A DNA stretch of 20,716 nucleotides from Gemmatimonadota bacterium (GTDB lineage Bacteria > Gemmatimonadota > Gemmatimonadetes > Gemmatimonadales > GWC2-71-9). Below are positions 848-15,761 of the stretch, in pieces. The stretch covers positions 1-20,716 of the forward strand of contig JAOTWK010000020.1 in assembly GCA_029862935.1 (NCBI GenBank). Direction: 5' to 3'. How positions within the stretch are numbered: position 1 is the first letter of the stretch; each line of letters starts with the position of its first letter. A program made the position numbers and the translations under genes. Under the pieces are notes generated by a model that ran no database searches, was not told where the DNA came from, and worked only from the letters and a program-made list of their open reading frames with translations.

Positions 848-1891
848 ATGAAAACTTTGCGAACGTTTGTATCTGCCGCTGTGCTCCTGCTCGTCGCAGG
901 CTCGGTGGCTGCTCAGGAGGATGCCTCGATCGAGCGCGTCCACCGCATGCTGGAACAGCACATCCAAAGCCTGGATCACCAGATCGATGCGCTGAGCCGC
1001 CAGATCGACGACATCATGTTCATGCAACGGCTGGGCGACATTGCTGAGGTCGACATCGCACGCATCACGGGCCCGCCACTTCGCCATCAACCGAACCCCA
1101 CGGCCCAAGGAGCGGGAAATCCGTTTCGGTTTTACACCTACGTCTTCATCCCGAAAGACCTGAATCGAGGCAGAAAGCACCCGCTGATCGTGTTTCCTCA
1201 TGGCGGAGTGCACAGCAACTTCACCACGTACTACACGCACATTCTCCGTGAGCTATTGACCGAGGGATATACGGTCGTGGCACCGGAGTATCGCGGCAGC
1301 ACGGGATACGGCGGTGGTACGTATCGCGCCATCGACTACGGCGGGCTCGAAACTGAAGACACCTACGCCGCACGCAACTGGGCACTCGAGACCTACGGCT
1401 TTCTCGATGGCAACCGAGTGGGAATCATCGGGTGGAGCCACGGCGGTCTCCACGCGCTGATGAACATCTTCGATCACCCGAATGACTACGCTGTGGCTTA
1501 CGCCGGCGTCCCAGTGAGCGACCTCATCGCGCGGATGGGCTACAAGACCCAAGGCTATCGCGACCTCTATTCCGCGGAATACCACATCGGCAAGACGGCC
1601 TACGAAGATGTCGAGGAGTACCGGCGGCGCTCGCCGTCGTGGCAAGCCCACCGATACGATGGCACGCCACTCCTCATCCACACCAACACGAACGACGGTG
1701 ACGTCAACGTGCTGGAAGTGGAGCGGTTGATCCAGGCCTTGAAGGCCGAAGGCAAAACCGGCTTCGAGTACAAGATCTACCAGGACGCGCCCGGAGGGCA
1801 CAGTTTCAACCGGCTCGACAACCGACTCGCCAAAGAATCGCGACGGGAGATCTGGGCATTCTTGGCGCAGCATCTGAGGCCGGGGAGATAG
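848..1891 (+). CDS. Secreted alpha/beta hydrolase of the prolyl oligopeptidase (S9) type
   Basis: 347 aa from ATG 848, preceded by the purine-rich stretch GGAGGCGGAGGA. An upstream in-frame start at 767 lies inside the terminator stem and is rejected. Residues 1-22 are a Sec signal peptide ending AAQ. Residues ~25-60 are charged, heptad-like and probably a short coiled coil. The catalytic domain has PHGG (117-120, oxyanion region), the nucleophile elbow GWSHGG with Ser197, an acid in NTNDGD (Asp283 or Asp285) and GGH with His318. This is the S9C/DAP-like catalytic domain without the usual N-terminal beta-propeller, so it is much shorter than full S9 peptidases. It probably hydrolyses peptides or small esters in the periplasm. 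An esterase cannot be excluded. It is the first gene after a strong terminator and may lead the hydrolase run that follows. Confidence 0.85.
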   Translation: MKTLRTFVSAAVLLLVAGSVAAQEDASIERVHRMLEQHIQSLDHQIDALSRQIDDIMFMQRLGDIAEVDIARITGPPLRHQPNPTAQGAGNPFRFYTYVFIPKDLNRGRKHPLIVFPHGGVHSNFTTYYTHILRELLTEGYTVVAPEYRGSTGYGGGTYRAIDYGGLETEDTYAARNWALETYGFLDGNRVGIIGWSHGGLHALMNIFDHPNDYAVAYAGVPVSDLIARMGYKTQGYRDLYSAEYHIGKTAYEDVEEYRRRSPSWQAHRYDGTPLLIHTNTNDGDVNVLEVERLIQALKAEGKTGFEYKIYQDAPGGHSFNRLDNRLAKESRREIWAFLAQHLRPGR

Positions 1892-1941
1892 CTGATAGCT
1901 ATCAGCGTTCAGCCGTCAGCGATCAGCTATCGGCTGTCAGC
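1891..1941 (+). repeat. Heptamer tandem repeat array, consensus GCNNTCA
   Basis: Seven consecutive 7-nt units, all in register, starting on the last base of the TAG stop of the hydrolase. Units include GCTGATA, GCTATCA, GCGTTCA, GCCGTCA, GCGATCA, GCTATCG and GCTGTCA. The first two units create the perfect 16-nt palindrome GCTGATAGCTATCAGC (1891-1906). The array fills most of the 68-nt gap before the next gene. Confidence 0.8.
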
Positions 1942-1959
1942 ATTTTCGTAGGGGGTATC

Positions 1960-3384
1960 GTGAGACGCATCGCAGTGCTCCTGTTGGCCTCGATTGGCAC
2001 AGGCTCGGTCCCGCTTGCCGCCCAGCAGCAGGGTGATGTCGCGATCGTGAATGGCCGAGTGATGGATCCGGCGAGCGGGCTCGCCGCGGTTCGCAATGTG
2101 CTCATCCGCGGCGACCGGATTGAGGCGATCACCGAAGAAGCCGTGCAGGCCACACGGACGATCGATGCGCGAGGACTCGTGGTGGCCCCGGGATTCGTCG
2201 ATATCCTCGCGCGCATCCGACCCCAACGTGAGCCACAGCGCTACAAGATCAAGGACGGGGTCACGACCGTGATCTCGATGCACGGCGGCCCGGTGGACGT
2301 GCGCGGCTGGTACGCCGCGTTCGAGCCCGAGGGCTCACTCCTGAACTACGGGACCACCGTTGGGCACCCCGACGTTCGGGAGGCCGCGGGGGCCACCGAT
2401 CTGTACGCACCGGCCACGCGGGAGCAACGCCGGGCAATGAAACGGATTGCCTCGCAGGCCATCGAAGACGGCGCCGTGGGGATCGGCTTCGGCATCAACT
2501 ACACGCCTGGCGCCTCCTACGAGGAGATCGTCGACATGTTTGCCGTGGCCGCGGACCAAAATGTCCCGGCTCACGTGCACTCCCGCTACAAAGGGTCGGT
2601 CTTCCCCGAGACGATCGTCCAATCCGTGCAGGAGGTGATCGCCGCCGCCGCGATCACAGGCGCGAGCGCGCAGGTTGTCCACCTCGCCTCCTCTGCCATT
2701 GGCTCGATGGAGGCGAGTCTCGAGATGATCGCCGGTGCCAAGGCGAACGGTGTCGACGTGATGACAGACATTCATCCCTACCTGGCCAACAGCACGCGAC
2801 TGGAATCGGCGCTCTACGACCCAGGTTGGGAGCAACGGTTCGGCGGTGCCGCGGTCGACTCCATCATGTTGGTGGAGACCGGTGAGCGGCTGAATGACGA
2901 GACGTTTGCCTATTGGCGAGAGAAGGGGGCCACCATCGTCACGTTCTTCATCCCGAAGAACGAGATGGTGATGGCCCTCAAACATCCGTTGGTCATGATC
3001 ACGAGCGATGGCATCATCCTCGACGGTAAGGGCCATCCGCGCGGCGCGGGCACCTTTGCACACGTGTTGGGACAACTCACGCGGGAAGAAGGCCACCTGA
3101 CCCTCATGGAAGCCCTCCGCAAGATGACCATCATGCCCGCCGAGCGGCTGGCGCGCGGGGCACCATCCATGGCTCAGCGCGGCCGCCTAGCCGTGGGCGC
3201 GTACGGCGACATCACCGTGTTCGACCCCAACGCGATCATCGACCGCGCCACCTACCTCAACTCGGCGCAGTATTCCGAAGGCGTGCGCCACGTGCTGGTG
3301 AACGGGGTCGTGGTGCTGGAAGACGGAGAGTTCGTGGAGGGAGCAGCGCCGGGGAGGGCGATACGGCACGGGAGTGAGAGATGA
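1960..3384 (+). CDS. Exported amidohydrolase-family protein (D-aminoacylase/dihydroorotase-like) lacking the HxH metal motif
   Basis: 474 aa from GTG 1960, with AGGGGGT just upstream. Residues 1-22 form a Sec signal peptide (…PLAAQ). The fold signatures of the amidohydrolase superfamily are all there: DVAIVNGRVMDP, the strand APGFVD (77-82), AHVH (204-207), VVH (His241), the C-terminal catalytic Asp in ITSDG (Asp350), GHPR.AGTF, and the closing composite-sheet motif VGAYGDITVFDP. The canonical HxH that should follow PGFVD is replaced: Leu83 and Arg85 sit where the two metal-binding His are expected. The bridging Cys found in D-aminoacylases is also absent. Relatives I recall carry DLHAHGQ here, so the loss looks specific. 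It may be inactive, use one metal, or have a new role. It is 30 nt from the next gene and probably cotranscribed. Confidence 0.82.
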   Translation: MRRIAVLLLASIGTGSVPLAAQQQGDVAIVNGRVMDPASGLAAVRNVLIRGDRIEAITEEAVQATRTIDARGLVVAPGFVDILARIRPQREPQRYKIKDGVTTVISMHGGPVDVRGWYAAFEPEGSLLNYGTTVGHPDVREAAGATDLYAPATREQRRAMKRIASQAIEDGAVGIGFGINYTPGASYEEIVDMFAVAADQNVPAHVHSRYKGSVFPETIVQSVQEVIAAAAITGASAQVVHLASSAIGSMEASLEMIAGAKANGVDVMTDIHPYLANSTRLESALYDPGWEQRFGGAAVDSIMLVETGERLNDETFAYWREKGATIVTFFIPKNEMVMALKHPLVMITSDGIILDGKGHPRGAGTFAHVLGQLTREEGHLTLMEALRKMTIMPAERLARGAPSMAQRGRLAVGAYGDITVFDPNAIIDRATYLNSAQYSEGVRHVLVNGVVVLEDGEFVEGAAPGRAIRHGSER

Positions 3385-3385
3385 G

Positions 3386-3541
3386 GCAGCGGCAGGGCGG
3401 CAGAGGAGACGACAATGACGACGAAGACGACAACGACGACTAGCTCGTCGAACACCCACAGTCGTCCATGTCGTCTCAGTCGTCTGAGTCGTCCATCCCA
3501 TCACAGTCGTCTCAGTCGTCTGCATTTCAGTCGTGGTTTCA
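3386..3541 (+). repeat. Composite short tandem repeats (CGGCAGGG, GACGACNNN, NNNGTCGTC) over the start of the next gene
   Basis: The stretch begins with ~1.7 copies of CGGCAGGG (3390-3403). Four 9-nt units of the form GACGACNNN follow (3408-3443), and the ATG at 3415 is embedded in the first. From 3458 come 9-nt units ending GTCGTC (for example TCAGTCGTC, twice), to ~3529. The second array is the reverse complement of the first in its GAC/GTC core, so the mRNA could fold into a long imperfect hairpin. Because the period is 9, it encodes a three-residue repeat of the SRL/SRP kind. Confidence 0.8.
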
Positions 3542-5169
3542 TAGTCGTCGCAGTTCTGGCAATCGCCTGCGCCCCGCCCCCCGAAATCGTCGAGCATCCG
3601 GCCTACGCAAGCGGCCAAATCGTGCGGTCGAACCGTGGCATGGTCGTCAGTGGGAGCGCGATTGCTACGGAGATCGGGGTGCGGGTGTTGGAGTCGGGCG
3701 GCAACGCCGTCGACGCCGCTGTCGCCACCGCCCTGGCACTCGCGGTAGTCGAACCCACCATGTCCGGCCTCGGGGGCCGCACCCAGATATTGGTCCGCAC
3801 CACCAGCGGCCAGTTTCACGGCGTCGACGGCACCACCGAGGTACCGCGCGGTGCACCCACTGATCCCACGAGTGACGAGGGCGCTTACGGATACCACACC
3901 ATCGGCATCCCCGGAACGGTCGCGGCCCTCGAGAGGGCGCTCACGGCCTTCGGCACCCGGTCCTTCGCAGAGCTGCTCACTCCTGTCATCGCGCTCGCCG
4001 ATACCGGGTTCTTGTTGCCTAACCCCGAAGCGGAACGCCTGGCGCGCGTCGCCGACCAGCTCAGGGAGTTCACGGGATCCGCAAGGTATTTCCTCAAACC
4101 TGATGGCTCGACATATCGGGGTGGTGAGCGACTGGTGCAGGCGGATCTGGCGAACACGCTCTCTGCACTCGCCACCGGTGGCGCGGAGGCCTTCTATGGC
4201 GGCTGGATTGCCGATACGCTCGCTGCCGACTTGGCGCGACACGGTGGGTTCGTCACAACCACCGATCTGTCGCGCTATCGCGCGCCGTGGAGCCGTATCG
4301 TACAGGGGAGTTACCGTGGCTTCGATTTGGTCGGTACGTATCTCCCGGCGTCGGGAGCAACGACAATCGAGGCGCTCCATCTGCTCGAACAGTTCGACCT
4401 GAGCGACCGCGCCGGAGGTGCGGAGTGGGCGGCGCTGCTGGCGCAGGCGTTGCTCTTGAGCTTTGAAGATCGTGTAGCGGATCTCGGAACTCCGGACGAG
4501 CACGCTCAAGTGTTGGCGTCCAAGGAGTGGGCCGCGACGCGCGCCGTCGACATCATGGACCCGGCACAACGGGAGGATCCCGTGGTCGTCTCGATGGCCG
4601 CGGCGAGTGACGAGTCTCCTTACACGACCCATCTCTCGGTGACCGACCGTGACGGTATGGTTGTCGCACTGACGCAGTCGCTCGGACCGACCATGGGCTC
4701 CAAGGTGGCCGCACCAGGGCTTGGCTTCGTCTACGCCGCGACCATGGGCTATCTCGGCGGGCTCCAGCCGGGCGATCGCCCGTTCTCGTCACAGTCGCCC
4801 CTCATCGTGCTGCACGATGGCGAGCCGGTGCTGGTGCTCGGCGCGGCGGGCGGCCGGCGTATTCTCTCCGCGATTGTGTCCGTCGTCAGTCGCTGGGTCG
4901 ACCAGCAACTCTCGCTACCCGACGCCATGGCCGCCCCACGGCTGCACCCCGACGTGCAGGCGGTGCACATGGAAGCTCGCGATGGCACCGCCTGGTCACC
5001 GGAAGATCTCACGGATCTCGCGAGCTATGGATTCGTCGTGGACGTGCGAACGGTCGCCTCCTATTTCGCACGCATCCACGGCATCGAAATCGACCCAGTG
5101 ACCGGCGACCACCTAGGCGTCGCCGATCCCCGCTGGAACGGAACGGCCGGAGCGCCGGGAGGGCGTTAA
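3415..5169 (+). CDS. Gamma-glutamyltransferase-family lipoprotein (Ntn hydrolase) with atypical substrate pocket
   Basis: 584 aa. ATG 3415 has AGAGGAG six bases upstream and is the only conventional start before the lipobox. The N-terminus is unusually long: an Arg/Ser-rich tail coded by the repeat array, then a hydrophobic stretch ending LAIAC, with Cys52 the predicted lipid-bearing residue. Large-subunit signatures: SGSAIATEIGVRVLESGGNAVDAAVA, EPTMSGLGG, IGIPGTV. The self-cleavage site and nucleophile are in TTHLSV (Thr404), and the small subunit has RPFSSQSP and GAAGGRRI. GGT enzymes cleave gamma-glutamyl bonds (glutathione, gamma-Glu peptides) outside the cytoplasm. Here residues that hold the glutamyl group in E. 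coli GGT seem changed: DGTTEVP replaces DFREMAP (Arg to Thr140), SLGPT replaces TLNTT, and NNQMDDF has no counterpart. A different acyl substrate is possible. It ends 3 nt before the next gene. Confidence 0.9.
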   Translation: MTTKTTTTTSSSNTHSRPCRLSRLSRPSHHSRLSRLHFSRGFIVVAVLAIACAPPPEIVEHPAYASGQIVRSNRGMVVSGSAIATEIGVRVLESGGNAVDAAVATALALAVVEPTMSGLGGRTQILVRTTSGQFHGVDGTTEVPRGAPTDPTSDEGAYGYHTIGIPGTVAALERALTAFGTRSFAELLTPVIALADTGFLLPNPEAERLARVADQLREFTGSARYFLKPDGSTYRGGERLVQADLANTLSALATGGAEAFYGGWIADTLAADLARHGGFVTTTDLSRYRAPWSRIVQGSYRGFDLVGTYLPASGATTIEALHLLEQFDLSDRAGGAEWAALLAQALLLSFEDRVADLGTPDEHAQVLASKEWAATRAVDIMDPAQREDPVVVSMAAASDESPYTTHLSVTDRDGMVVALTQSLGPTMGSKVAAPGLGFVYAATMGYLGGLQPGDRPFSSQSPLIVLHDGEPVLVLGAAGGRRILSAIVSVVSRWVDQQLSLPDAMAAPRLHPDVQAVHMEARDGTAWSPEDLTDLASYGFVVDVRTVASYFARIHGIEIDPVTGDHLGVADPRWNGTAGAPGGR

Positions 5170-5172
5170 GTA

Positions 5173-6804
5173 ATGGGTTTCTCGACGAAAGCTCGAATGC
5201 GGCAGGGCGGCAGGGCGGCAGGGCGGCAGTTGCTGGTCGCCGCGCTGTTGGTGCCGCTCCTGCCCCGTCTGCCTCCTAACGCCCCCACTGCCTCCGCTCA
5301 ACAGTTTGACCTCCTCATCCAGAACGGTCGCCTGCTCGACGGCATGGGGAATCCGTGGTACTACGCTGACGTGGCGGTGACTGGGGACCGCATAGTGGCC
5401 GTGGGACGGCTCGAGGGTGCGACCGCCCGCCGCGTCATCGATGCGCGCGGACTCTACGTGGCACCGGGGTTCATCGACCCGCACACCCATGCGGGGACCG
5501 GGTTGGTGCGCGAGGACCTGAGTCACGCGCAACCGCTCCTCGCACAGGGCATCACGTTCGCGCTGCTCAACCCGGACGGCGGGGGGCCCGTCGATCTCGC
5601 GGCACAGCGTGACCAGCTGCTCGCGCACGGGTTGGGCATCAACGTGGGCCTGCTGGTGCCACATGGGTCGGTACGTCGCGCCGTGCTCGGCATGGACGAC
5701 CGCGCCCCGTCGGCCGCAGAGCTTGCCCAGATGCAGCAGCTGGTTCGCGATGGCATGGAGCGTGGTGCGTTCGGCATGTCGAGCGGGCCGTACTACGCTC
5801 CCGGCAGCTACTCGACGACCAGGGAGTTGGTCGAGCTCGCGAGGGTTGTCGCCGAGTACGACGGAGCCTATACAAGTCACATCCGCGACGAAGCGGACTA
5901 CAACATCGGCGTTGTGGCGGCAGTGGAAGAAGTCATCACGGTCGCTCGCGAGGCACGGCTCCCCGGGGTCGCGACGCACCTCAAGGTGTTGGGCCCCCGG
6001 GTCTGGGGATACTCGATGGCCGTGGTGGAACGGATCGAGCGCGCACGGGAGGCAGGTGTCGAGGTGTTTGCCGATCAGTACCCGTATCTCGCATCCGGCA
6101 CCAGCGTCACGGGCGCATTGGTGCCGCGATGGGCGCAAGTCGGTGGCCGTGATGCCCTGCTTGCTCGGATCGACTCACCGACGGAGCGCGCGCGGCTTCG
6201 TGCGGACATGATCGAGAACCTCGACCGTCGGGGTGGCGCTGACAAGCTCCAGTTTCGCTACCACACGGCCGATCCGTCTGTCGAGGGACGAACCCTGCAG
6301 GCCGTCGCCGACGAGCGGGGCGTGGAACCGGTGGATCTCGCCATCGCCCTCGTCCAAGCTGGTGGAGCCGGCGTCGTGTCGTTCAACATGCACCCACGAG
6401 ACGTCGACCTCATCATGCGCCAACCGTGGACGATGACCTCTTCCGACGGCGGGCTCGTGCCGATGGGTCAAGGTGTGCCGCATCCGCGCTACTATGGGGC
6501 GTTCCCGCGCAAGATCCGCCAATACGTCGTCCACCAAGACGTGATCGGCCTCGAGCATGCGGTGCGCAGCATGACGAGCCTCACGGCGGCCGTATTTCGG
6601 ATTCCCGATCGCGGCACCGTCCAGCCGGGTGCGATCGCCGACGTCGTCGTGTTCGATCTCGAGAGCCTGACGGACCGAGCCACGTACAACGATCCGCATC
6701 AACTCTGCGAAGGGATGCAGTACGTGTTGGTGAATGGGAGGCTTGCGATTGACGGGGGAGCGTTCACGGATGAGCTCGCCGGACGGGTGGTGCAAAGACG
6801 CTAG
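5173..6804 (+). CDS. N-acyl-D-amino-acid deacylase (D-aminoacylase), exported
   Basis: 543 aa from ATG 5173, with GGAGGG nine bases upstream. ATG 5197 (residue 9) is the main alternative. The signal peptide runs to about residue 43 (…TASAQQ), and its N-region is coded by the GGCAGGGC octamer repeat. Amidohydrolase motifs are intact: PGFIDPHTHAG (His104, His106), SHIRDE (His236), THLKVLGP (His269), and SSDGG (Asp425), followed by GVPHPRYYGAFPR, typical of D-aminoacylases. The bridging-metal Cys of characterised D-aminoacylases (in GNCG) is replaced by NPDGG (133-137). The family removes acyl groups from N-acyl-D-amino acids. With the GGT-family and amidohydrolase genes just upstream it forms a compact amide-cleaving operon, perhaps for peptidoglycan-, lipopeptide- or D-amino-acid-derived nutrients (inference). 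Confidence 0.88.
   Translation: MGFSTKARMRQGGRAAGRQLLVAALLVPLLPRLPPNAPTASAQQFDLLIQNGRLLDGMGNPWYYADVAVTGDRIVAVGRLEGATARRVIDARGLYVAPGFIDPHTHAGTGLVREDLSHAQPLLAQGITFALLNPDGGGPVDLAAQRDQLLAHGLGINVGLLVPHGSVRRAVLGMDDRAPSAAELAQMQQLVRDGMERGAFGMSSGPYYAPGSYSTTRELVELARVVAEYDGAYTSHIRDEADYNIGVVAAVEEVITVAREARLPGVATHLKVLGPRVWGYSMAVVERIERAREAGVEVFADQYPYLASGTSVTGALVPRWAQVGGRDALLARIDSPTERARLRADMIENLDRRGGADKLQFRYHTADPSVEGRTLQAVADERGVEPVDLAIALVQAGGAGVVSFNMHPRDVDLIMRQPWTMTSSDGGLVPMGQGVPHPRYYGAFPRKIRQYVVHQDVIGLEHAVRSMTSLTAAVFRIPDRGTVQPGAIADVVVFDLESLTDRATYNDPHQLCEGMQYVLVNGRLAIDGGAFTDELAGRVVQRR
5201..5229 (+). repeat. Octamer tandem repeat GGCAGGGC, 3.6 perfect copies
   Basis: Three exact copies (5201-5208, 5209-5216, 5217-5224) plus GGCAG. 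The array lies within codons 10-19 of the D-aminoacylase and encodes a Gly/Arg/Ala-rich signal-peptide N-region. The same unit occurs at 3390-3403. Confidence 0.9.
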
Positions 6805-7021
6805 CTCGAAGGCGCTCGACAACTCACCGGGGACACCCAGCCTCCCGACCTGCTGCTCGAGCCACTACCTTTCGCGGGCGCGTGCCGGTCGAGCGCAACG
6901 ATTCCCACCTCCCACACGTAGTGCAGAGGGTGGCCTCTCACTATCATCGCTGGCATTTGGCCGCGGCACGGGTCGGCAATGAGCCGATCGGTTGTGGCCT
7001 GAACGCACGTTCACGGACGCT
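6805..7021. other. Gap of ~217 nt with no recognised feature
   Basis: It lies between the D-aminoacylase stop and the outer-membrane protein start. I see no convincing gene, strong hairpin with a T-tract, or short tandem repeat of the kind found at other junctions. It presumably holds the promoter of the downstream gene, but no clear -35/-10 pair stands out. Confidence 0.5.
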
Positions 7022-8308
7022 ATGCATCGACGAATCCTGATCTCTTTACCAGTGGCGCTTGCGGTGAGCATTCCTCTCGCCGCAGCCAACGCGCAGGACG
7101 CCGGGGCGTCTCAAGCTCAGGGTTCGTTCGTGTTCCTCGACTGCCATACACGGCTCTGTGACTTCAGCCACTTCCGGCGGGAGATCACGTTCGTCAATTG
7201 GGTCCGCGACCGTCAGGACGCGGACGTGCATCTTCTCGTGACACAGCAGGGGACGGCCGGTGGCGGGTCGCGGATCACCCTGACCCTCTTCGGGTTGCGG
7301 GAGCTGCAGGGTCGCTCGGACACGCTCCACGTGGTCACTGCCGCCGACGACTCGTACGAAGAGGAGCGAGCCGCGCTGACCCGTGCCCTTGCATTGAGCC
7401 TGATCCCCTATGTTTGGCACTCCGACGTCTTCCAGCGACTCTCGCTCGACTACACCCCCGCGGTCGATCGGCCCGGCGGCGGCGTGACCGAGAACATCCG
7501 CGACCCCTGGAACTACTGGGTGTTCCGCACCGGTGTTGGCGGCTCTGTAGAGTCTGAGAGCCAGGAGCGGTTCCTGTCCGGCGATATCAGGATGGATGCC
7601 AGCCGGATCACTGAGGATCTCAAGCTCGAGCTCGAGATCGACGTGGAAGGCAATCGGTCGGAGTTCGACTTCGTCGACGAGGCGGAGGGCATCGACACGA
7701 CGTACGTCAGCGTCCGTACCTTCTACGGCTTCGAGGGCCTGGCCGCATGGAGCATCGGCCGGCACTGGTCGGCCGGCGGTCTGGCCGATGTCAGCCGGTC
7801 GAGCACCCGCAACACGGACCTCCGGATGGAGGCAGGACCCGCGATCGAGTACAACATCTTCCCTTACGAAGAGTCCACCTGGCGCCGGTTCACGCTCCGC
7901 TACGCGGTGGGCGTGGCGGCGTTCAACTGGGCAGACACAACCATCTTCGATCGGACCTCCGAGGTACATCCAGTCCACGTGTTCGAGATAGAGATCGGGG
8001 TTCAGCAGCCGTGGGGGACAATCCGCGGTTCACTCGACGCCTTCCAATACCTTCACGATCTGAGTAAGCACAGCATCAGCGTGGGCGGACATATCGGAGT
8101 GCGTGTGGTAAGGGGCCTCGAATTCCAGATTGGCGGCAACTTCTCCCGCATCAAGGACCAGATATACCTCTCCAAGGAGGGGCTCACGTCGGATGAGGTC
8201 CTCCTCCAACAACGTGAGCGCGGGACGGATTACCGGTTGGGGCTTGACCTTGGGCTGAGCTTCCGGTTCGGCTCCAAGTTCGCCAACGTGGTGAATCCCA
8301 GGTTCTAA
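7022..8308 (+). CDS. Unassigned outer-membrane beta-barrel protein
   Basis: 428 aa from ATG 7022. A TTG 30 nt upstream is possible, but the signal peptide fits the ATG. Residues 1-25 are a signal peptide ending ANAQ. Residues ~35-160 look like a periplasmic domain beginning FLDCHTRLCDF (Cys41 and Cys46 may form a disulfide), then FVNWVRDRQDADVHLLVT. From ~170 (NYWVFRTGVGG) to the end, alternating polar/hydrophobic strands with Gly and aromatic residues indicate a beta-barrel. The protein ends in NPRF; a terminal Phe is the usual BAM recognition signal. I recall similar hypothetical proteins in Bacteroidota and Gemmatimonadota but cannot name a function. The ribosome-binding site is weak. It could be a barrel with a small secreted domain for surface binding. 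Confidence 0.7.
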   Translation: MHRRILISLPVALAVSIPLAAANAQDAGASQAQGSFVFLDCHTRLCDFSHFRREITFVNWVRDRQDADVHLLVTQQGTAGGGSRITLTLFGLRELQGRSDTLHVVTAADDSYEEERAALTRALALSLIPYVWHSDVFQRLSLDYTPAVDRPGGGVTENIRDPWNYWVFRTGVGGSVESESQERFLSGDIRMDASRITEDLKLELEIDVEGNRSEFDFVDEAEGIDTTYVSVRTFYGFEGLAAWSIGRHWSAGGLADVSRSSTRNTDLRMEAGPAIEYNIFPYEESTWRRFTLRYAVGVAAFNWADTTIFDRTSEVHPVHVFEIEIGVQQPWGTIRGSLDAFQYLHDLSKHSISVGGHIGVRVVRGLEFQIGGNFSRIKDQIYLSKEGLTSDEVLLQQRERGTDYRLGLDLGLSFRFGSKFANVVNPRF

Positions 8309-8356: not shown

Positions 8357-8381
8357 CCACAGATCAGGAACGCATCTGTGG
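8357..8381. other. Perfect 8-bp hairpin in the gap before the MOSC gene
   Basis: CCACAGAT (8357-8364) and ATCTGTGG (8374-8381) are perfect inverted repeats with a 9-nt loop. No T-run follows, so it is not a classical terminator. It could be an mRNA-stabilising hairpin at the end of the barrel transcript or an operator. Confidence 0.35.
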
Positions 8382-8432
8382 GCGCCCCAGCAGCGGCATC
8401 GCGCCTGGTTACACCACTGGATAAGTTGGGAC

Positions 8433-8888: not shown

Positions 8889-8911
8889 AAGTTGCCGGCG
8901 GCACGAACTGA

Positions 8912-9078
8912 GACGGCGGCAGAAGCGGCAGGATCTGCCGGGCAGGAGGAACAGACGAGTCGACTCTGACGACTGGGACGACTTAGACAACGAGCGACGA
9001 CCGGCACAGGGAACAGCCGATAGCTGAAGGCAGATGGCAGATGGCTAACAACTGAGAACTGAGAACTGATGACTGAAT
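8912..9078 (+). repeat. Mosaic of CGGCAG, GACGACNNN and heptamer tandem repeats running into msrB
   Basis: Degenerate CGGCAG units (8912-8946) are followed by 9-nt GACGAC-type units (8968-9000). Nine heptamers in strict register follow (9016-9078): GCCGATA, GCTGAAG, GCAGATG twice, GCTAACA, ACTGAGA twice, ACTGATG, ACTGAAT. The ATG of msrB (9069) is the last three bases of the eighth unit. The CGGCAG-then-GACGAC order repeats that at 3390-3443. Confidence 0.8.
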
Positions 9079-9461
9079 CCTCTGACTGGAAGTCCAAACT
9101 CACACCGGAGCAGTACCGCATCACCCGCAAGAAGGGCACGGAGGCGCCTTTCAGCGGGGAGTATGTCGACTGCAAGACACCCGGTACGTACCGCTGCGTA
9201 TGCTGCGGGAACCAGTTGTTCTCCTCGGACACAAAGTTCGACTCGGGCACGGGATGGCCCAGCTTCTACGCCGCCGCCGCCACAGGTGCGGTTCGCATGG
9301 AGGCGGACAACAGCCTGTTCATGCGCCGCACCGAGGTGCTGTGCGCCTCGTGCAATGCGCACCTCGGACACGTGTTCGATGACGGACCGCAGCCGACGGG
9401 GAAGCGCTACTGCATCAACTCCGTGGCCCTCGATCTGGATCCCGAAGACTCGACCACCTGA
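9069..9461 (+). CDS. msrB: Peptide-methionine (R)-S-oxide reductase MsrB
   Basis: 130 aa, a full-length single-domain MsrB. It reduces methionine-R-sulfoxide in proteins using thioredoxin. Seen: [26 protein letters not shown] at the start, structural zinc ligands in [11 protein letters not shown] (Cys43, Cys46) and CASC (Cys92, Cys95), substrate-pocket GTGWPSFY (60-67), GHVFDDGP, and the catalytic Cys115 in RYCINSVAL. No signal peptide is visible, so it is probably cytoplasmic. The start codon sits inside a heptamer repeat array and has no recognisable Shine-Dalgarno sequence. It ends 20 nt before the biotin ligase gene. Confidence 0.95.
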
Positions 9462-9481
9462 GCCGCCGCCCTCACGATTGC

Positions 9482-10414
9482 ATGATTGTCTACACCGATA
9501 GCATCGAATTCGCGGATAGCCTCTTCTCCAATGGCCGAGCGACGTGGGGTCCGGCGACGTTCACCGAAGCCACGCGCCTTCTTGGCCACCAGTTGTTTGG
9601 CGATCAGCCCGTGTCCTGCCGGGAACTCGATCCCGTCGAGCCGTTCACGATCCTATTCGCAACCAAGACGGCATCGCAGTCGCAGTACGACATCCTGACC
9701 GGTCTCGGCGGCGCGGGAACGGCGCTGCCCGGTGCTGTGTTGTGTCTTGCCGGCTCGGGTCGCGGATTCCACGGCCAGCGAGGACGCCCATGGTCGGCAT
9801 CAGAGGGGAATGTGCATCTGTCGGCACACTTCACCCTGCCCGTCTCGGCCCACACCACCGTGCCGGACTTCACCGCGCTCGCAGCCGTGTCCGTGGTCGA
9901 CACGATTGACGGCATCGACGACCTTCACGGGCGCGCTGGGATCAAGTGGGTGAACGACATCTTGATCGATGGCGCAAAGGTGTGCGGGATTCTCGCTGGC
10001 ACAGATACCAGTGGAGCCCATGTCAGTCGGGCCGTCATCGGCATCGGCCTCAACGTCGAGAATGTCCCGACGATAGCGCCCACACCGTTCGTGCCAAAGG
10101 TGGCTGCGCTGCGAACGTTTACCTCCGACGCCGCGTGCAACCGCGCGCACGTGCTGACGTCACTGTTGGCGATCTTGGGACGGAACTACCTCACGCTCAT
10201 CGGCAGCAATCCCACATCACTTGTGGATCGATACCGTGACCGGTCGTTGATCATTGGCAGTCACGTGACGATCTGTGCTGACAGCTCCGATGACCAGCCA
10301 GTCGTTCTTGCGAGCGGGCGGGCAGAGGCCCTCGGCGATCAACTCGAGCTGTACATCGGCGGAGTGAAGCAACCCTTCGCCCATGGCCGAGTGATCCTGG
10401 ACCCTCGACGCTGA
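9482..10414 (+). CDS. birA: Biotin-[carboxyl carrier] protein ligase, BirA catalytic-domain type
   Basis: 310 aa from ATG 9482. Biotin ligases make biotinyl-AMP and transfer biotin to a Lys on carrier domains. Seen: the nucleotide/biotin loop GRGFHGQRGRPWSASEGN (93-110; canonical GRGR.GR.W.S..G), the catalytic-lysine motif GIKWVNDILIDG with Lys155, GILAG, and GIGLNV (187-192), then a small C-terminal beta domain. There is no N-terminal winged helix, so it is not a DNA-binding repressor. Residues 1-88 are longer than usual before the GRG loop and contain a divergent first half of the BPL fold. It lies upstream of, and on the same strand as, the biotin-dependent decarboxylase genes, whose alpha subunit carries an EAMK site. 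That makes this subunit its likely target, alongside any acetyl-CoA carboxylase carrier. Confidence 0.88.
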   Translation: MIVYTDSIEFADSLFSNGRATWGPATFTEATRLLGHQLFGDQPVSCRELDPVEPFTILFATKTASQSQYDILTGLGGAGTALPGAVLCLAGSGRGFHGQRGRPWSASEGNVHLSAHFTLPVSAHTTVPDFTALAAVSVVDTIDGIDDLHGRAGIKWVNDILIDGAKVCGILAGTDTSGAHVSRAVIGIGLNVENVPTIAPTPFVPKVAALRTFTSDAACNRAHVLTSLLAILGRNYLTLIGSNPTSLVDRYRDRSLIIGSHVTICADSSDDQPVVLASGRAEALGDQLELYIGGVKQPFAHGRVILDPRR

Positions 10415-10550
10415 CGGCGCATGGATTCGCGGCACTCTTGCACTACCCACCGACGCTTGCGCAAAACCGGCCTTCACTGCCTATTCAAGATCTCGGATAT
10501 GTGGGCTGAGCGGTTGTTTGTCGGGAGCGGTACGGGAACGGGAGAAGCTC

Positions 10551-10763
10551 ATGGGATCGCCTGACATCGTCATCGTCTGCGTTTCCGCCTTCATTGCCGT
10601 CTTTCTGCTTCTTACCGTGCTCGCGCTCGTCATGCGCACCCTCATCTCCGTATTCCCCCAGCTCACCGGTGGCAGTGACGTTGCGGTCCTGGCGGCCGTC
10701 TCCGCAGCGGTAGCGGCTGCCTATCCAGGAGCTAGGATCACGAACATCGAGGAGCAACGATGA
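10551..10763 (+). CDS. oadG: Sodium-pump decarboxylase gamma subunit (OadG family)
   Basis: 70 aa. ATG 10551 has GGGAGAAG just upstream; a TTG 33 nt earlier is less likely. One membrane helix (about residues 6-28, IVIVCVSAFIAVFLLLTVLALVM) is followed by a short cytoplasmic tail with Ala-rich SDVAVLAAVSAAVAAAYPG, the usual OadG pattern. The gamma subunit anchors and stabilises the alpha/beta complex at the inner membrane. The final Cys/His zinc ligands of some OadG proteins are not seen. Its stop overlaps the next start (ATGA at 10760-10763), indicating translational coupling with the alpha subunit. Confidence 0.82.
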   Translation: MGSPDIVIVCVSAFIAVFLLLTVLALVMRTLISVFPQLTGGSDVAVLAAVSAAVAAAYPGARITNIEEQR

Positions 10764-12610
10764 TCTTCAGCGAGAAGCCCAAGAAGATCCGGGTGATGTT
10801 TACGCCGTTCCGGGATGGTCTGCAAAGCTCATTCGGCGGGAAGGTCCGCCTGAACGACTTTTTACCAGCTATGCAACTCTCCGTCGAGGCCGGCATTCGC
10901 CATTTCGAGTTCGGGGGTGGAGCCCGGTTCCAGGCACCGTTGTTCTACCTCGGGGAGAATCCATTCGAAGACATGGAGAAGATGCGGGAGGCAGTAGGGC
11001 CGGACGTGGACCTCCAAATTCTCACGCGCTCGGTCTCTGGCGTCACGCTCACCACACAGTCTCCCGAAGCCCTCGAGCTCCAGGCCAAGCTGATGAAGCA
11101 GGCCGGCACGACGTGGGACCGCAACTTCGACTACATGAATGACGTGAGGAACCTCGTCAAGACCGGGAAGCCGATCGTCGACGCGGGCATGCATCACCAG
11201 GTGGCTATTGCCTTGATGGGGTTGCCGTTCGAGTCCGACAAGGTTCATACGCCAGCCTTCTACATCGACATTGGCCGGAGGCTACTCGAGAGCGACGTGC
11301 ACATCGACAGCATCGTGCTCAAGGACGCGAGTGGCACGACAGATCCCAAGACCATTTACGACACCGCCGTCGGCCTGCGGAAGATCATGCCGCCCGAAAT
11401 GCCGCTGTGGATGCACACCCACGACACGGCGAGTACCGCGGTCTCGTGTTACATGGCTGCCATTGCGGGCGGTGCCGATGGTGTCGACCTCTCAGTGCGA
11501 CCATTGGCGAGCGGTACCGTCCAACCCGACGTGCGGTCGCTCGCCCATGCGCTCAAGGGCACCGGCTACTCGCTCGATCTCGATGTCTCGAAGATCGGGA
11601 AGATCGAGAAGCTGCTGACCGATCTCCTCGAGGACTATGCCTTCAACCCGACCACGACCACCGCTGACGCCCGCGTGCTTGGGTTTCCCATGCCGGGAGG
11701 CGCGATCGGGCCCAACGTGCACATGATGGAGAAAGCCGGGATCCTGGATCGGTACAGTGAGGTCCTGTCGGAGTTCCCAGTCGTTGTGGAGGCCGGCGGT
11801 GCCTGGACCAGTGTGACCCCTGGGAGTCAACAATACTGGCTGCAGGCCTTCAACAACGTGCTCTACGGCAGGTGGAAGAAGATCGACCCGGGATACGGCA
11901 AAGCCGTGCTCGGGTATTTCGGCAAGACCCCACTTCCGCCCGACGTGAACGTGGTCAAGATCGCGTCGGAGCAGCTGGACTTGGCGCCATTCGACGGCGA
12001 CCCGCTCGAGGCCGCGCCCAAGAACATCGAGCCGGCCAAGCACGCACTCGAAGAACGCGGGCTGCCTGTGACGGATCGCAACATCTTCCTCGTGCTGGCA
12101 TCCATGGTACCCAACAAGAAGTTGGAGGTGAACGAGGGCATCCGGCTGCTGACGGGGAAAGCGAAGATCGACATTCCACTCAAGAAGAAGCCCGAGGAGT
12201 CCAAGCCGGTACCGGCAGCTGCGGCAGCCACTCCGGTCGCGGCGCCGATCGCGGGGCCAATGACGTCCCGCTGCACGGTGGAAGAAAACGGCACTAAGCG
12301 CACTTTCGTGATCACGCTGGAGCCCACCACTGCTGGCGGCGCTCCCTCGTCCGCGCCGGCCGCGGTTGCCTCGGCCACCGCTACGGCACCGGGCACACCC
12401 GTGTTCTCCACCTTCGCAGGATCGGTCGAGGTCGTAGACATCCGAGTCAAGGTCGGCGACCCGGTGATCCGGGGTGGCGTCATCGCGCAGGTCGAGGCGA
12501 TGAAGGCGACGCACGACATCAAGGCTCCGTGTGACGGCACCGTGACGGAGATCAAGGTCAAGATCGGCGACGAGATCGACTCCTCGCATCCTATCATGGT
12601 TATCGCCTAG
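10760..12610 (+). CDS. oadA: Oxaloacetate decarboxylase-type alpha subunit (carboxyltransferase plus biotin carrier)
   Basis: 616 aa. The carboxyltransferase barrel comes first: FRDGLQSSFG (17-26, where Asp19 is the expected metal ligand; canonical LRDxHQS), FDYMNDVRNL (123-132), the carbamylated-Lys region VLKDASGTTDP (Lys188), and metal-binding HTHDT (His219, His221). A PYC_OADA conserved helical region follows (about 295-470), then an Ala/Pro linker (485-550), and a C-terminal biotin-carrier domain with VEAMKATHD (Lys582 biotinylated). The known reaction moves CO2 from oxaloacetate to biotin and releases pyruvate; the beta subunit then decarboxylates biotin and exports Na+. The N-terminal motif and residues 88-165 differ from typical OadA, so a related 2-oxo acid or pyruvate carboxylase B-type role is possible. 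Cytoplasmic face of the complex. Confidence 0.88.
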   Translation: MIFSEKPKKIRVMFTPFRDGLQSSFGGKVRLNDFLPAMQLSVEAGIRHFEFGGGARFQAPLFYLGENPFEDMEKMREAVGPDVDLQILTRSVSGVTLTTQSPEALELQAKLMKQAGTTWDRNFDYMNDVRNLVKTGKPIVDAGMHHQVAIALMGLPFESDKVHTPAFYIDIGRRLLESDVHIDSIVLKDASGTTDPKTIYDTAVGLRKIMPPEMPLWMHTHDTASTAVSCYMAAIAGGADGVDLSVRPLASGTVQPDVRSLAHALKGTGYSLDLDVSKIGKIEKLLTDLLEDYAFNPTTTTADARVLGFPMPGGAIGPNVHMMEKAGILDRYSEVLSEFPVVVEAGGAWTSVTPGSQQYWLQAFNNVLYGRWKKIDPGYGKAVLGYFGKTPLPPDVNVVKIASEQLDLAPFDGDPLEAAPKNIEPAKHALEERGLPVTDRNIFLVLASMVPNKKLEVNEGIRLLTGKAKIDIPLKKKPEESKPVPAAAAATPVAAPIAGPMTSRCTVEENGTKRTFVITLEPTTAGGAPSSAPAAVASATATAPGTPVFSTFAGSVEVVDIRVKVGDPVIRGGVIAQVEAMKATHDIKAPCDGTVTEIKVKIGDEIDSSHPIMVIA

Positions 12611-12622
12611 CCAGCGGCGCCG

Positions 12623-13744
12623 ATGAACACCGTCACCGAGCTGCTGCGACAGTCCGGACTCGTCAACCTGACTGTCGGCAACCTCGCCATGTTTGTCGTG
12701 GCGGCAGTGCTCATCTACCTCGCCATTCGCAAGCAATACGAACCCCTGCTGCTCATTCCCATCGGCTTTGGGGCCTTGCTGGCCAATCTGCCACTTGCCG
12801 ACATGGGTTCCTATGGCGAGGGGATCATTGCGTTGATCTACGAGAATGGTATCCGCACGGAGCTCCTCCCACCGCTGATCTTCCTGGGCGTGGGCGCCTT
12901 GACGGACTTCCGCCCACTCTTGGGCCGCCCTCTCACGTTTCTCTTGGGCGCCGCCGCGCAGTTCGGCATCTTCGCGGCAGCATTGATCGCGGCATTACTG
13001 CTGGGCTTCACACCCCAGGAGGCCGGGGCCATCGGGATCATCGGCGGCGCCGACGGGCCGACGACGATTTTTTTGGCCTCTCAGCTGGCCCCGCACCTGC
13101 TTGGTCCCGTGGCGGTAGCGGCCTACAGCTACATGTCGCTGGTTCCGATCATTCAACCGCCGATCATGCGGCTCCTCACGACGCAGGCTGAGCGTCAGAT
13201 CGACATGCCACAGGCAATTCCCGTTTCCCAGACTGCGGTGATCCTGTTCCCGGTCGTCACCGGCGTCATCGCGTCGCTGGCAGTACCGACGAGCGCGCCG
13301 CTCATCGGCATGCTGATGTTCGGCAACTTGCTGCGCGAGTCCGGTGTCACGGAACGGCTCCGGAAGACCGCCGGCGGATCGCTCATCGACATCGTCACCA
13401 TCTTCTTGGGCGTGGTGGTGGGAGCCACCATGGACGCGGAACACTTCATCACCTTCCAGACGATTCTCATCCTGGTCTTGGGGGCGGTCGCGTTCTCCTT
13501 CAGCACGGCCGGCGGTATCCTCTTCGCCAAAGGCCTGAACCTGTTCCTTCGGCACAAGATCAACCCCTGCATTGGGGCCGCCGGCGTATCGGCAGTGCCG
13601 ATGTCCGCACGGGTGGTGCAGCGCTTCGTATCGGAAGCAACGGACGGGCGTGTAAACCCGCTCATGCCTGCCATGGGCCCCAACGTCGCTGGTGTCATCG
13701 GCTCCGCCGTAGCTGCTGGCGTGTTCCTCACGCTTCTGGGCTGA
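12623..13744 (+). CDS. oadB: Na+-transporting decarboxylase beta subunit (OadB family)
   Basis: 373 aa, starting 12 nt after the alpha-subunit stop. Very hydrophobic, with about nine or more membrane segments plus re-entrant loops. Signatures: GNLAMF near the start, FLGVGALTDFRPLL (87-100), the key motif GIIGGADGPTTIF with Asp144 (equivalent to the Na+-binding Asp203 of Klebsiella OadB), GNLLRESGV (234-242), SAVPMSARV (323-331) and NPLMPAMGPNVAGVIGSA (345-362). It decarboxylates carboxybiotin on the alpha subunit and couples this to Na+ export across the inner membrane. It is shorter than Klebsiella OadB at the N-terminus but otherwise complete. A sodium gradient from this pump fits a marine or saline habitat (inference). 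Confidence 0.93.
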   Translation: MNTVTELLRQSGLVNLTVGNLAMFVVAAVLIYLAIRKQYEPLLLIPIGFGALLANLPLADMGSYGEGIIALIYENGIRTELLPPLIFLGVGALTDFRPLLGRPLTFLLGAAAQFGIFAAALIAALLLGFTPQEAGAIGIIGGADGPTTIFLASQLAPHLLGPVAVAAYSYMSLVPIIQPPIMRLLTTQAERQIDMPQAIPVSQTAVILFPVVTGVIASLAVPTSAPLIGMLMFGNLLRESGVTERLRKTAGGSLIDIVTIFLGVVVGATMDAEHFITFQTILILVLGAVAFSFSTAGGILFAKGLNLFLRHKINPCIGAAGVSAVPMSARVVQRFVSEATDGRVNPLMPAMGPNVAGVIGSAVAAGVFLTLLG

Positions 13745-13895
13745 CCGCCAGATCGTCATACTCCTGCCAACGTGAAGACCTTTTCAATGGGTCTTGTGGC
13801 TCGCATGAACTCGTTCTGAGTACTCTTCATGGTTGCGTATTCCCCTGCCGATCCGTCGTCGGCGATGGTCACGGATGCGGAGGGTGAGTGAGGGG

Positions 13896-13959
13896 GAGTT
13901 GCCGGTCGTAAGGACCGCAGCCAAGGCGGGCTGATGGCCCGCCAAGACTCGAGGAGGGG
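13896..13959 (+). promoter_or_regulatory. Candidate structured leader (three-way junction) ahead of malic enzyme
   Basis: In the 221-nt gap after oadB, a closing stem GAGTT (13896-13900) with GACTC (13946-13950, one G-U pair) can enclose two hairpins. These are CGGTC/GACCG (13903-13907 with 13913-13917) and GGCGGGC/GCCCGCC (13925-13931 with 13937-13943, loop TGATG). The closing stem abuts the Shine-Dalgarno GAGGAGGGG (13951-13959). I do not recognise a known riboswitch. The rest of the gap shows only a weak hairpin at 13775-13795. Confidence 0.35.
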
Positions 13960-13965
13960 TGATCC

Positions 13966-15684
13966 GTGCCTGCGAAGAAGTCAGCGAAGCGGCTTTCAAA
14001 GTCGGTGGCCTCGCGCACCACAAAGACGACCAAGCAAGTCAAAACAGCGTCAACAATGGCCTCGCATGCTCGAGGCGTCGAGCTGCTCCACGACCCGCGC
14101 CTCAACAAGGGAACGGCGTTTACCGAGACCGAGCGTGACGTGCTCGGTCTGCGTGGCCTGTTACCGCCACACGTGCATACCATGGAAGAGCAGCAGGCAC
14201 GTGTGCTGGAAAACTTCAAGGCCAAGCCGGATGCGTTGGAGAAATACATCTTCTTGACGGCCCTGCAGGACCGGAACGAGACGTTGTTCTACCGCACGGT
14301 GATCGACAACATCTACGATATGACGCCGATCATCTACACGCCGACCGTCGGGGAGGCATGTGCCAAGTACGGGCACATCTTTCGGCGGCCCCGCGGTCTC
14401 TACATCACCGCGCACGACAAGGGTCGTGTCGCGGACGTGCTGCGCAACTGGCCGTCCCGCGACGTCGCGATCGTCGTCGTCACCGACGGCGAACGCATCT
14501 TGGGTCTGGGGGACCTCGGGGCTGATGGGATGGGAATTCCCATCGGCAAGCTCTCGCTCTACACTGCCTGTGCCGGCGTCCATCCCGACCTTGCGCTTCC
14601 AGTGACGCTCGACGTCGGGACCAACAACGAAGAGCTCTTGCGGGATCCGCTGTACATCGGCCTCAAGCACCGGCGCTTGCGTGGCACAGACTACGATGCC
14701 CTGGTGGAAGAGTTCGTGGAAGCGGTGCAGAAGGTGTTTCCGGGAACGCTGATTCAGTTCGAAGACTTTGCCACACTCAACGCATTCCGACTCCTCGCAC
14801 GCTACCGCAATCGAATCTGCTCCTTCAACGACGACATTCAGGGTACTGCGGCGGTCACACTTGCCGGACTACTTGGGGCCATTCGGATCACCGGTCAGGC
14901 GATCACAGACCAACGTTTGCTCTTTTTGGGCGCCGGAGAGGCCGGGATCGGCATCGCCGATCTCATCACCTCGGCCATGGTCAAAGAGGGTCTTTCGCCG
15001 GCCAAGGCTAAGGACCGCGTGTGGTTCGTGGATTCCAAAGGCCTCGTGGTGGACTCCCGCACCGACCTTGCAGAGCACAAACGCCCGTACGCACGGAAAC
15101 ACGCTTTTCTCAAGAGTCTCGAGGAAGCGCTCACGGCGGCGAAGCCAACGGCCATCATCGGGGTCTCGGGCCGACCCCAGTCGTTCACCGAGCCGGTCGT
15201 CCGCAAGATGGCATCCCTCAACGAGCGACCGATCGTATTCGCGCTCTCCAACCCGACCTCGAAGGCCGAGTGTACGGCCGAGCAGGCGTATCGGTGGACC
15301 GACGGCCGTAGCATCTACGCGAGTGGGAGTCCGTTCGAGCCAGTCGAGATGAACGGCAAGCGGCACGTCCCGACACAGGGGAACAACGCGTACATCTTTC
15401 CGGGATTGGGCCTGGGCGCGATTCTGAGCGGTGCCAAGCACGTCACGGATGAGATGTTCTACACGGCCGCGCAGGCGGTTGCCAACATGACAACGGAGAG
15501 CATGCTGGCAGAAGGCTCGATTCTGCCCTCGCTCACCCAGATACGGCGCGTGTCGGCCACCATTGCCACCGCAGTGGCGAAGTACGCGTGGCAGGAGAAA
15601 CTGGCCACCAAGAAGCGACCGCGGAACATCGAGGCGTACGTCCGCGCCAACATGTACGATCCACGGTACGAGAGTTACGTGTAG
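13966..15684 (+). CDS. maeA: NAD(P)-dependent malic enzyme (large, SfcA/MaeA type)
   Basis: 572 aa from GTG 13966, with the very strong Shine-Dalgarno GAGGAGGGG seven bases upstream. An internal ATG (residue 31) has none. The first ~30 residues are a Lys/Thr/Ser-rich tail not found in most homologues. The enzyme oxidises malate to pyruvate and CO2. Motifs: RGVELLHDPRLNKGTAF, YTPTVGEAC (catalytic Tyr124), VVTDGERILGLGDLGADGMGI, GKLSLY (catalytic Lys195), metal ligands QFEDFA (Glu265, Asp266) and FNDDIQGTAAV (Asp289), the dinucleotide fold GAGEAG (322-327), and SNPTSKAEC, ASGSPF, QGNNAYIFPGLGLG. The length and motifs match the eukaryote-like/E. coli MaeA class, not the short MaeB class. It follows the oxaloacetate-decarboxylase pump, so both routes from C4 acids to pyruvate sit side by side. 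Cofactor choice (NAD or NADP) is not decided by the sequence. Confidence 0.95.
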   Translation: MPAKKSAKRLSKSVASRTTKTTKQVKTASTMASHARGVELLHDPRLNKGTAFTETERDVLGLRGLLPPHVHTMEEQQARVLENFKAKPDALEKYIFLTALQDRNETLFYRTVIDNIYDMTPIIYTPTVGEACAKYGHIFRRPRGLYITAHDKGRVADVLRNWPSRDVAIVVVTDGERILGLGDLGADGMGIPIGKLSLYTACAGVHPDLALPVTLDVGTNNEELLRDPLYIGLKHRRLRGTDYDALVEEFVEAVQKVFPGTLIQFEDFATLNAFRLLARYRNRICSFNDDIQGTAAVTLAGLLGAIRITGQAITDQRLLFLGAGEAGIGIADLITSAMVKEGLSPAKAKDRVWFVDSKGLVVDSRTDLAEHKRPYARKHAFLKSLEEALTAAKPTAIIGVSGRPQSFTEPVVRKMASLNERPIVFALSNPTSKAECTAEQAYRWTDGRSIYASGSPFEPVEMNGKRHVPTQGNNAYIFPGLGLGAILSGAKHVTDEMFYTAAQAVANMTTESMLAEGSILPSLTQIRRVSATIATAVAKYAWQEKLATKKRPRNIEAYVRANMYDPRYESYV

Positions 15685-15691
15685 TCGGGTC

Positions 15692-15761
15692 TCAGCTCTC
15701 AGATACCAGCCGTCGCCCTTCGGCTGTGACGTGTCACGGCTCACGGCGCACGGCGCCCCGC
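15692..15761. repeat. Heptamer tandem repeat array between convergent maeA and dodecin genes
   Basis: Ten 7-nt blocks read in register from 15692, clearest at the end: TCACGGC, TCACGGC, GCACGGC (15734-15754). The array also contains the hairpin CAGCCG/CGGCTG (15707-15712 with 15721-15726) and the palindrome GTGACGTGTCAC. It fills the whole space between the two stop codons and may act as a bidirectional terminator, though there is no T-run. Confidence 0.65.

Follow-up and report, generated by a model that had tools for sequence, protein, structure and literature searches.

Dispersed heptamer arrays, often in inverted pairs, at gene ends in part of the Gemmatimonadota

Heptamer repeats are known from scattered bacteria, in which they have no agreed role. 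The short tandemly repeated (STRR) heptamers of cyanobacteria, to which the arrays described here are likened by description only, consist of 7-nucleotide (nt) tandem units in intergenic DNA. Here we deal with such arrays in a stretch of 20,716 nt from a Gemmatimonadota bacterium (contig JAOTWK010000020.1 of assembly GCA_029862935.1), called the window throughout, and in related genomes, which, like single loci, are cited by our own handles. An original prediction, made from the letters of the window alone, had noted short-period repeats at five sites and had pointed to known intergenic heptamers for comparison. This was the right comparison, as the heptamers of Xanthomonas and the TAACTGA repeats illustrate.

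According to excerpts of Rehm et al. 2015 (PMC4692102), the Xanthomonas heptamers, GGGAATC or more generally GGGANTN, are placed at stop codons, form inverted pairs and persist in a sister species. The same excerpts (PMC4692102) put them on the non-coding strand upstream of start codons, describe them as rare between divergent genes, and attribute quadruplex capability to their G-tracts of three. The TAACTGA heptamers are, in the portions of MacGregor 2015 (PMC4679880) drawn on here, intergenic direct repeats of Beggiatoaceae, some cyanobacteria and Bacteroidetes, which in some species are mixed with other heptamers and which in two Cyanothece strains show indels mostly in 7-nt steps. In the main genome treated in those portions, they lie mostly just upstream of starts, in 169 direct sets and with one indirect repeat (PMC4679880).

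An element of this general kind occurs in part of the Gemmatimonadota, with units of 7 nt (sometimes 8 nt) in which a fixed core is combined with variable positions, and it is located at gene ends. It is closely akin to the Xanthomonas heptamers, yet a variant rather than a member, because several of its main families lack quadruplex capacity and its arrays show no polarity before starts. The likeness lies in the 7-nt units with conserved and variable positions (in genome G002 and in the window), in a strand polarity at stops (29 of 31 arrays) and in the inverted pairs (14 of 15). Unlike in Xanthomonas, there is no polarity before starts (10 of 20 arrays, as judged from a gene caller with unreliable starts), several main units contain no GGG, octamer families are found beside the heptamers, and the favoured unit itself changes between related genomes at shared junctions, all this in a different phylum. 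Among the literature matches listed, there was no report of such arrays in Gemmatimonadota, nor of shared junctions at which the favoured unit had shifted.

The resemblance to the TAACTGA repeats is looser: their complement TCAGTTA fits TCRGNNN, the frame of the window's heptamers, but the plus-strand unit in the window is AACTGAG, not TAACTGA, and AACTGAGAACTGA had no match in G001 to G004, TAACTGA itself not being searched. REP/BIME palindromes form intergenic hairpins after genes; the present arrays differ from these in that the arms are tandem arrays rather than one palindrome, and no Y1 transposase match was obtained in G002, G004, G164 or G003.

The heptamer sites of the window, with the open reading frames (ORFs) that they adjoin, are as follows.

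1887..1899, minus strand: short reverse-oriented piece, GCTGATA (complement of TATCAGC), read from the sequence and overlapping the stop TAG (1889-1891) of the S9-type peptidase
1902..1943, plus strand: six TCRGCNN heptamers, lying between the ORFs of the S9 peptidase and the first amidohydrolase (start 1960); profile score 22, Tandem Repeats Finder (TRF) period 7/21
9014..9076, minus strand: nine heptamers in one register, crossing the MsrB start codon at 9069; profile score 29.5, the best run of the window
15685..15761, plus strand: 11 heptamers in one register, forming the entire spacer between the malic-enzyme gene maeB and dodecin; profile score 22.5

Four heptamers had been read at these places, namely GCNNTCA, GCAGATG, ACTGAGA and TCACGGC, and the unit sequence had been said to differ from site to site. 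That the units are arbitrary at each site is not borne out, as all four are readings of one 7-nt frame, TCRGNNN, and relatives have one or a few genome-wide families. By a TCRGNNN profile, which was picked after inspecting the sequence, the window's three best runs are the three heptamer sites, i.e. 1902-1985 on the plus strand (22), 9014-9104 on the minus strand (29.5) and 15685-15775 on the plus strand (22.5), the maximum in 100 shuffles being 16; clear units cover 1902-1943, 9014-9076 and 15685-15761. Over all 256 4-mer cores, 106 runs with 7-nt spacing scored at least 13 in the window, as against 2 to 22 in ten shuffles, and TRF called period 7 (or 21) at 1897-1941, 9029-9045, 9050-9069 and 15735-15756. 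With the TRF calls at periods 8 and 9 (see below), the presence of short-period repeats at or near all five predicted positions is thus confirmed, as is their location at gene junctions, which in the relatives becomes a location at gene ends. When cores are ranked by number of runs at period 7, TCAG comes 10th and TCGG 9th in the window (tied counts of 3, the best being 4), the highest single run in that ranking (28) belonging to TCAG with its complement. The corresponding ranks are 5th for TCAG in G003, and 2nd in G002 and 9th in G004 for TCGG, while both fall outside the first 200 in G054.

On the reverse strand, the units at 9014-9076 read TCAGTCA, TCAGTTC, TCAGTTC, TCAGTTG, TTAGCCA, TCTGCCA, TCTGCCT, TCAGCTA and TCGGCTG. 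The maeB/dodecin spacer measures 77 nt, i.e. 11 x 7, from the malic-enzyme stop (15684) to the reverse-strand dodecin stop (15762), and its units have C at position 2 in 10 of 11 cases and T at position 1 in 8. Inverted pairing is partial at 1887-1945, where the fold is better than that of shuffles on both strands (z -5.2 forward, -4.7 reverse), and clear at 3386-3541. In G054 and G330 (L014, L015), an extra gene on the dodecin strand is situated between malic enzyme and dodecin, where the window has only its 77-nt spacer. A deletion scar was considered as the origin of the arrays and set aside; it is possible at maeB/dodecin because of the extra gene in these two relatives, but at the junction of the first amidohydrolase with gamma-glutamyltranspeptidase (GGT) L001 and L002 have the same gene order as the window.

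The observations on periods, unit families, stop-codon placement, polarity, pairing, shared junctions, and differences in copy number and unit were made in relatives, in which the genome-wide tests were run, with statistics from long stretches of G002, G004, G003 and G054. The fetched stretches were partly masked as N, and genes were called by script with a simple codon-usage caller, the start sites of which are unreliable. Period counts use a lower threshold, a strict one having given few arrays. In 194 kb of intergenic DNA from these four genomes, 20 arrays had period 7 and 15 had period 8, as compared to 1, 7, 1, 0, 3, 4 and 3 arrays at periods 5, 6 and 9-13, respectively; period 14, a multiple of 7, accounted for 10. 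Coding DNA of the same genomes is led by periods 6, 9 and 12 (23, 23 and 21 arrays); arrays of periods 7 and 8 number 13 and 2 there, and some of these are maybe miscalled. The enrichment at 7-9 nt that had been proposed for intergenic DNA therefore stands for periods 7 and 8 and falls for period 9, which is without enrichment outside coding DNA. The trait is also patchy within the phylum, since other Gemmatimonadota genomes have few or no arrays at periods 7 and 8: none was found in 63 kb of intergenic DNA of G129, G078, G062, G133, G016 and G023, none in the intergenic DNA of five further loci of the phylum (9 kb), and two of period 8 in 9 kb of G043. The Escherichia coli control (21.7 kb intergenic) had none at either period.

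One unit family is particularly clear in G002, in which CGGTNNTCGGTNNTCGGT had 75 overlapping matches, followed by 18 in G004, 1 in G054 and 0 in seven other genomes, while the reversed pattern had zero matches in all ten genomes searched. Three of the eight genomes in the family of G002 contain CGGTNNTCGGTNNTCGGT, the third being G164 with 74 matches. In G002, the variable pair of the unit is mostly GG, AG, GA or AA; in G164, as read from the list of matches, AT, AC or TT prevail. In the 41 tracts of G002 (222 units), identified with one core mismatch permitted per unit, positions 2, 4 and 5 are nearly invariant and positions 6-7 are mostly purines. Neighbouring units were identical in 58 out of 181 cases, as against an expected 35.1 when shuffled over the genome and 50.3 (standard deviation 4.6) when shuffled within arrays, as expected from turnover at the level of the array.

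On a wider scale, GCTGANN x 3, which is complementary to the TCAGC unit of the window, was found in 68 of 390 genomes and its reversed control in 26 (our count), while TCRGNNN x 4 was found in 154 and its reversed control in 123 (our count). These last figures rule out a universal TCRG core as a phylum-wide rule, and because the reversed control is nearly as widespread, heptamer arrays must be taken to occur with several cores. The top of both tables is held by G315 (6.6 Mb), with 431 matches to GCTGANN x 3 and 412 to TCRGNNN x 4. Several unlike unit families are found in G003, and an octamer family, GGCGGTTA, occurs in G054 (L061, L062, L065), twice as inverted pairs and beside a few heptamer arrays. 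Units with G-triplets, i.e. TCAGGGG, CCAGGGG, AAAGGGG and TCCCCGAA, belong to families in G003, G002, G004 and G054. Several of the main families, namely TCGGTNN, TCAGCNN, GGCGGTTA and GCGGATT, are devoid of such triplets and have the same placement.

Among 60 arrays at junctions, two of them belonging to the window, the nearest ORF end is a stop no more than 25 nt away in 31 cases, and the sense strand is the G-richer one in 29 of the 31, polarity being derived crudely from the GC count (2 of the 60 arrays had no difference). With arrays nearest a stop at any distance, the proportion is 33 of 38. Array-free stops, used as a control, are near balance (336 with G>C, 263 with C>G and 55 equal). 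Arrays are most frequent at convergent junctions (17 of 132), as compared to tandem (24 of 616) and divergent ones (6 of 171), the difference between convergent and remaining junctions having a Fisher p of 0.0001. The orientation of the arms is equally regular: 14 of the 15 tract pairs within 250 nt in G002 are plus-then-minus, and the fifteenth is a single tract interrupted by a base, with the reservation that 13 of the 14 come from 20 loci selected by the TCGGT pattern. Among the matches listed for TCRGNNN x 4, there are 14 cases of neighbours on opposite strands no more than about 125 nt apart, and by our reading all of them are plus-then-minus as well. When folded, the 14 G002 pairs had z values of -2.1 to -9.4 relative to shuffles; pairing of the arms is thus possible in the RNA of both strands, as it should be for inverted arrays.

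For eight array-bearing junctions of G002, nine adjoining gene pieces were looked for in G004 and G164, and six junctions could be found and read in the former and four in the latter. The adjoining genes are given names that we take to apply from their sequences (GuaA, SOD, PntB, GspF, GcvPB, HemE and FabH). At all six junctions shared by G002 and G004, an inverted array pair is present in both genomes in the same place; the copy number differs at all six and the commonest unit at five, in agreement with the expectation that orthologous junctions would vary in unit or copy number. Position 1 of the unit at these junctions is T in 55, C in 4, A in 2 and G in 1 of the 62 units of G002, and C in 33, T in 12, A in 4 and G in 1 of the 50 units of G004, in which C is commonest at five junctions and the SOD junction has T in all six units. 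Because picking the 20 G002 loci by their TCGGT pattern biases position 1 towards T, the count was redone on unselected DNA, giving T in 40 of 49 units for G002, and 21 T, 23 C, 18 G and 1 A among 63 units for G004. At the PntB 3' end of both genomes (L205, L214), a terminator-like stem is, by eye, kept in the loop between the heptamer arms. The original prediction of an ongoing process that makes short repeats, as opposed to a copied element, accordingly holds in so far as copy number and unit differ, but it is incomplete: the inverted pairing, the stop-codon polarity and the persistence of pairs in two genomes point to a maintained element too.

The explanation that we prefer, with about even confidence, is that these are slippage-renewed hairpins kept for action at mRNA 3' ends, and that the window carries a worn form of this dispersed intergenic element. 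Often an array is faced, on the other side of the spacer, by a run of the complementary unit, with which it can form an imperfect hairpin in the RNA of both strands. Copies may be gained and lost via slippage in 7-nt steps, while the pair would be retained through a role at mRNA 3' ends, such as end protection or the separation of neighbouring transcripts; some pairs would enclose an ordinary terminator in their loop.

A number of results speak against this explanation. The intergenic autocorrelation at lag 7, in a spectrum that coding DNA overlooked by the gene caller has blurred, is modest for the window (z 3.5), G002 (2.9) and G004 (2.7), and G054 and L003 do not show it. The array is, by eye, missing at all four junctions read in the more distant G164, one of which has a plain terminator-like stem, while at GspF another gene apparently comes next; at greater distances, four junctions (8 directed cases out of a total of 98 directed conserved pairs) have an array on one side only. 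Arrays nearest a start have no polarity (10 of 20 as in Xanthomonas, and 2 more without G-C difference), and many arrays are without a partner, including the one in the window's maeB/dodecin spacer. This spacer also lacks a strong hairpin (z -1.0 and 0.0 relative to shuffles) and has a C-richer sense strand in its left part, and the window's array before MsrB runs counter to the polarity by G count. Terminator-like sites were seen at 3 of 15 convergent junctions with arrays and at 20 of 81 without. Own arms paired no better than arms swapped between junctions (p 0.97), for which reason the arms seem to be drawn from the family of the genome and unmatched at each locus. Copying of arms from each other at each locus, or compensation at the level of the locus, was left unsupported by the same comparison.

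A further proposal, that the dispersed hairpin-forming arrays evolve in concert, with the favoured unit shifting across junctions while the sites stay fixed, is in our view doubtful. It is based on TCGGT in G002 as against CCGGT, which by eye is commonest in both arms at five of six G004 junctions, and is made less probable by the SOD junction, which keeps T in all six G004 units, and by the mixed position 1 of G004. If true, it would require either a process that rewrites or homogenises distant short arrays, or the preference of a recogniser that drives them all.

Of the other explanations, neutral slippage, in which 7-nt repeats expand by slippage of the polymerase and survive only where the harm is slight, i.e. 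in spacers after genes, with pairing and polarity as by-products, is possible but rather unlikely. Among long simple repeats, heptanucleotides reportedly form the commonest class in the majority of prokaryotic genomes studied, for which slippage has been proposed (Mrazek, as cited in the excerpts of PMC4679880 and PMC4692102), copy numbers are unlike at all six orthologous junctions, and units are more alike within than between arrays; the excess of neighbour identity over within-array shuffling is, however, slight (58 versus 50.3). Neutral expansion also accounts poorly for dispersed arrays that have one core per unit family and facing arms of fixed polarity, for the sense polarity at stops, and for the retention of both arms at every junction shared by G002 and G004. 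That the arrays are binding sites of a sequence-specific RNA- or DNA-binding protein that reads the core, so that a shift in its preference moves the units genome-wide, we regard as improbable. A fixed core with variable positions, genome-wide unit families and the different favoured base at position 1 in the related G002 and G004 would all suit such a protein, whereas the mixed position 1 of G004 and the several unlike families of G003 would not, and no candidate protein came up, no search being aimed at one.

It is very improbable that templated synthesis or a copied mobile element, with a reverse transcriptase or a REP-type transposase, lays down the units, even if this would account for shared units and their joint shift. 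RVT_1 was present in 7 genomes of an array-rich group and 6 of an array-poor group, and the Y1 transposase in 10 and 7, respectively, each group consisting of 26 genomes picked by hand, and both went undetected in the array-bearing G002, G004, G164 and G003. Reverse transcriptase and Y1 transposase are thereby largely refuted as makers of the arrays. The G-quadruplex elements that have been proposed for Xanthomonas and Nostoc heptamers share the placement and pairing rules and would fit the units with G-triplets, but they are extremely improbable here, given that several main families without such triplets obey the same placement. Two further roles were dropped. Rho has a spacing rule for YC sites, but regularly spaced sites of this type do not fit the GGCGGTTA and GCGGATT families, which have no YC on the G-richer strand, and a supply of stop codons does not fit the several units that contain no stop.

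The window also carries arrays with longer units.

3386..3403, plus strand: GGCAG-type units, read from the sequence, directly after the first amidohydrolase stop (3384)
3407..3440, plus strand: left arm of an inverted pair, a nonamer array of GACGACNNN; TRF period 9
3459..3552, plus strand: right arm of that pair, a nonamer array of GTCGTCNNN, in the reading frame of the GGT ORF (3415-5169); TRF 3459-3521, remainder by eye
5199..5229, plus strand: perfect octamer array, GCGGCAGG x 3.9, 30 nt past the GGT stop; TRF period 8, score 62
5257..5276, plus strand: decayed inverted partner of the octamer array (CTCCTGCCCCGTCTGCCTCC), read by eye from the sequence
8912..9001, plus strand: GGCAG and GACGAC modules in degenerate form, following the MOSC stop (8888), read from the sequence; no TRF call

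The recurrence of GGCAG followed by GACGAC at 3386-3440 and 8912-9001, which had been pointed out beforehand, is found again by reading, with only the first locus called by TRF. Both the 9-nt and the 8-nt arrays (3407-3552 and 5199-5276) have inverted partners and extend into the next ORF. The fold of 3386-3541 is better than that of shuffles (z -4.0 forward, -2.0 reverse), and that of the octamer pair weakly so (z -1.1 and -1.8). Most of the 9-nt array falls within the listed GGT ORF, in its reading frame, and the last GTCGTCNNN unit (3544-3549) encodes part of the hydrophobic signal core. The N-terminus of this ORF (3415-3560) consists of the nonamer array, rich in Thr, Ser and Arg, followed by a lipoprotein-like signal, and the only in-frame ATG, GTG or TTG ahead of the signal core is, by eye, the ATG at 3415; the GGT of L001 and L002 has a short ordinary signal at its N-terminus. 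The orthologous junction in L001 and L002 is short and array-free, and because these loci join the same two genes without it, the nonamer array before GGT was probably added in the lineage of the window. The octamer array at 5199-5229 falls within the signal-peptide region of the second amidohydrolase ORF and is missing at the orthologous junction of L005.

The gene set of the window is an ordinary one, of a Gemmatimonadota-like bacterium. By Pfam, it comprises part of a SusD protein, an S9-type peptidase, two amidohydrolases, GGT, a MOSC protein and MsrB, and further biotin ligase, oxaloacetate decarboxylase subunits, malic enzyme, dodecin, a potassium channel, a P460 cytochrome, an M28 peptidase and others. 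Among 13 relatives of GGT, those with 54-66% identity are three Gemmatimonadota genomes and L001, the remainder having 38-40%, and the nearest genomes by malic enzyme are G054 and G330 (74% and 72% of residues shared, respectively). An Rfam search of the window returned no match.

Lastly, the stop placement and inverted pairing described for Xanthomonas extend to another phylum, and do so also for units without G-triplets. Since the latter follow the same rules, quadruplexes are weakened as a common explanation, and hairpins or protein recognition at gene ends remain. With the same sites but different favoured units in G002 and G004, the change of the unit becomes directly testable.

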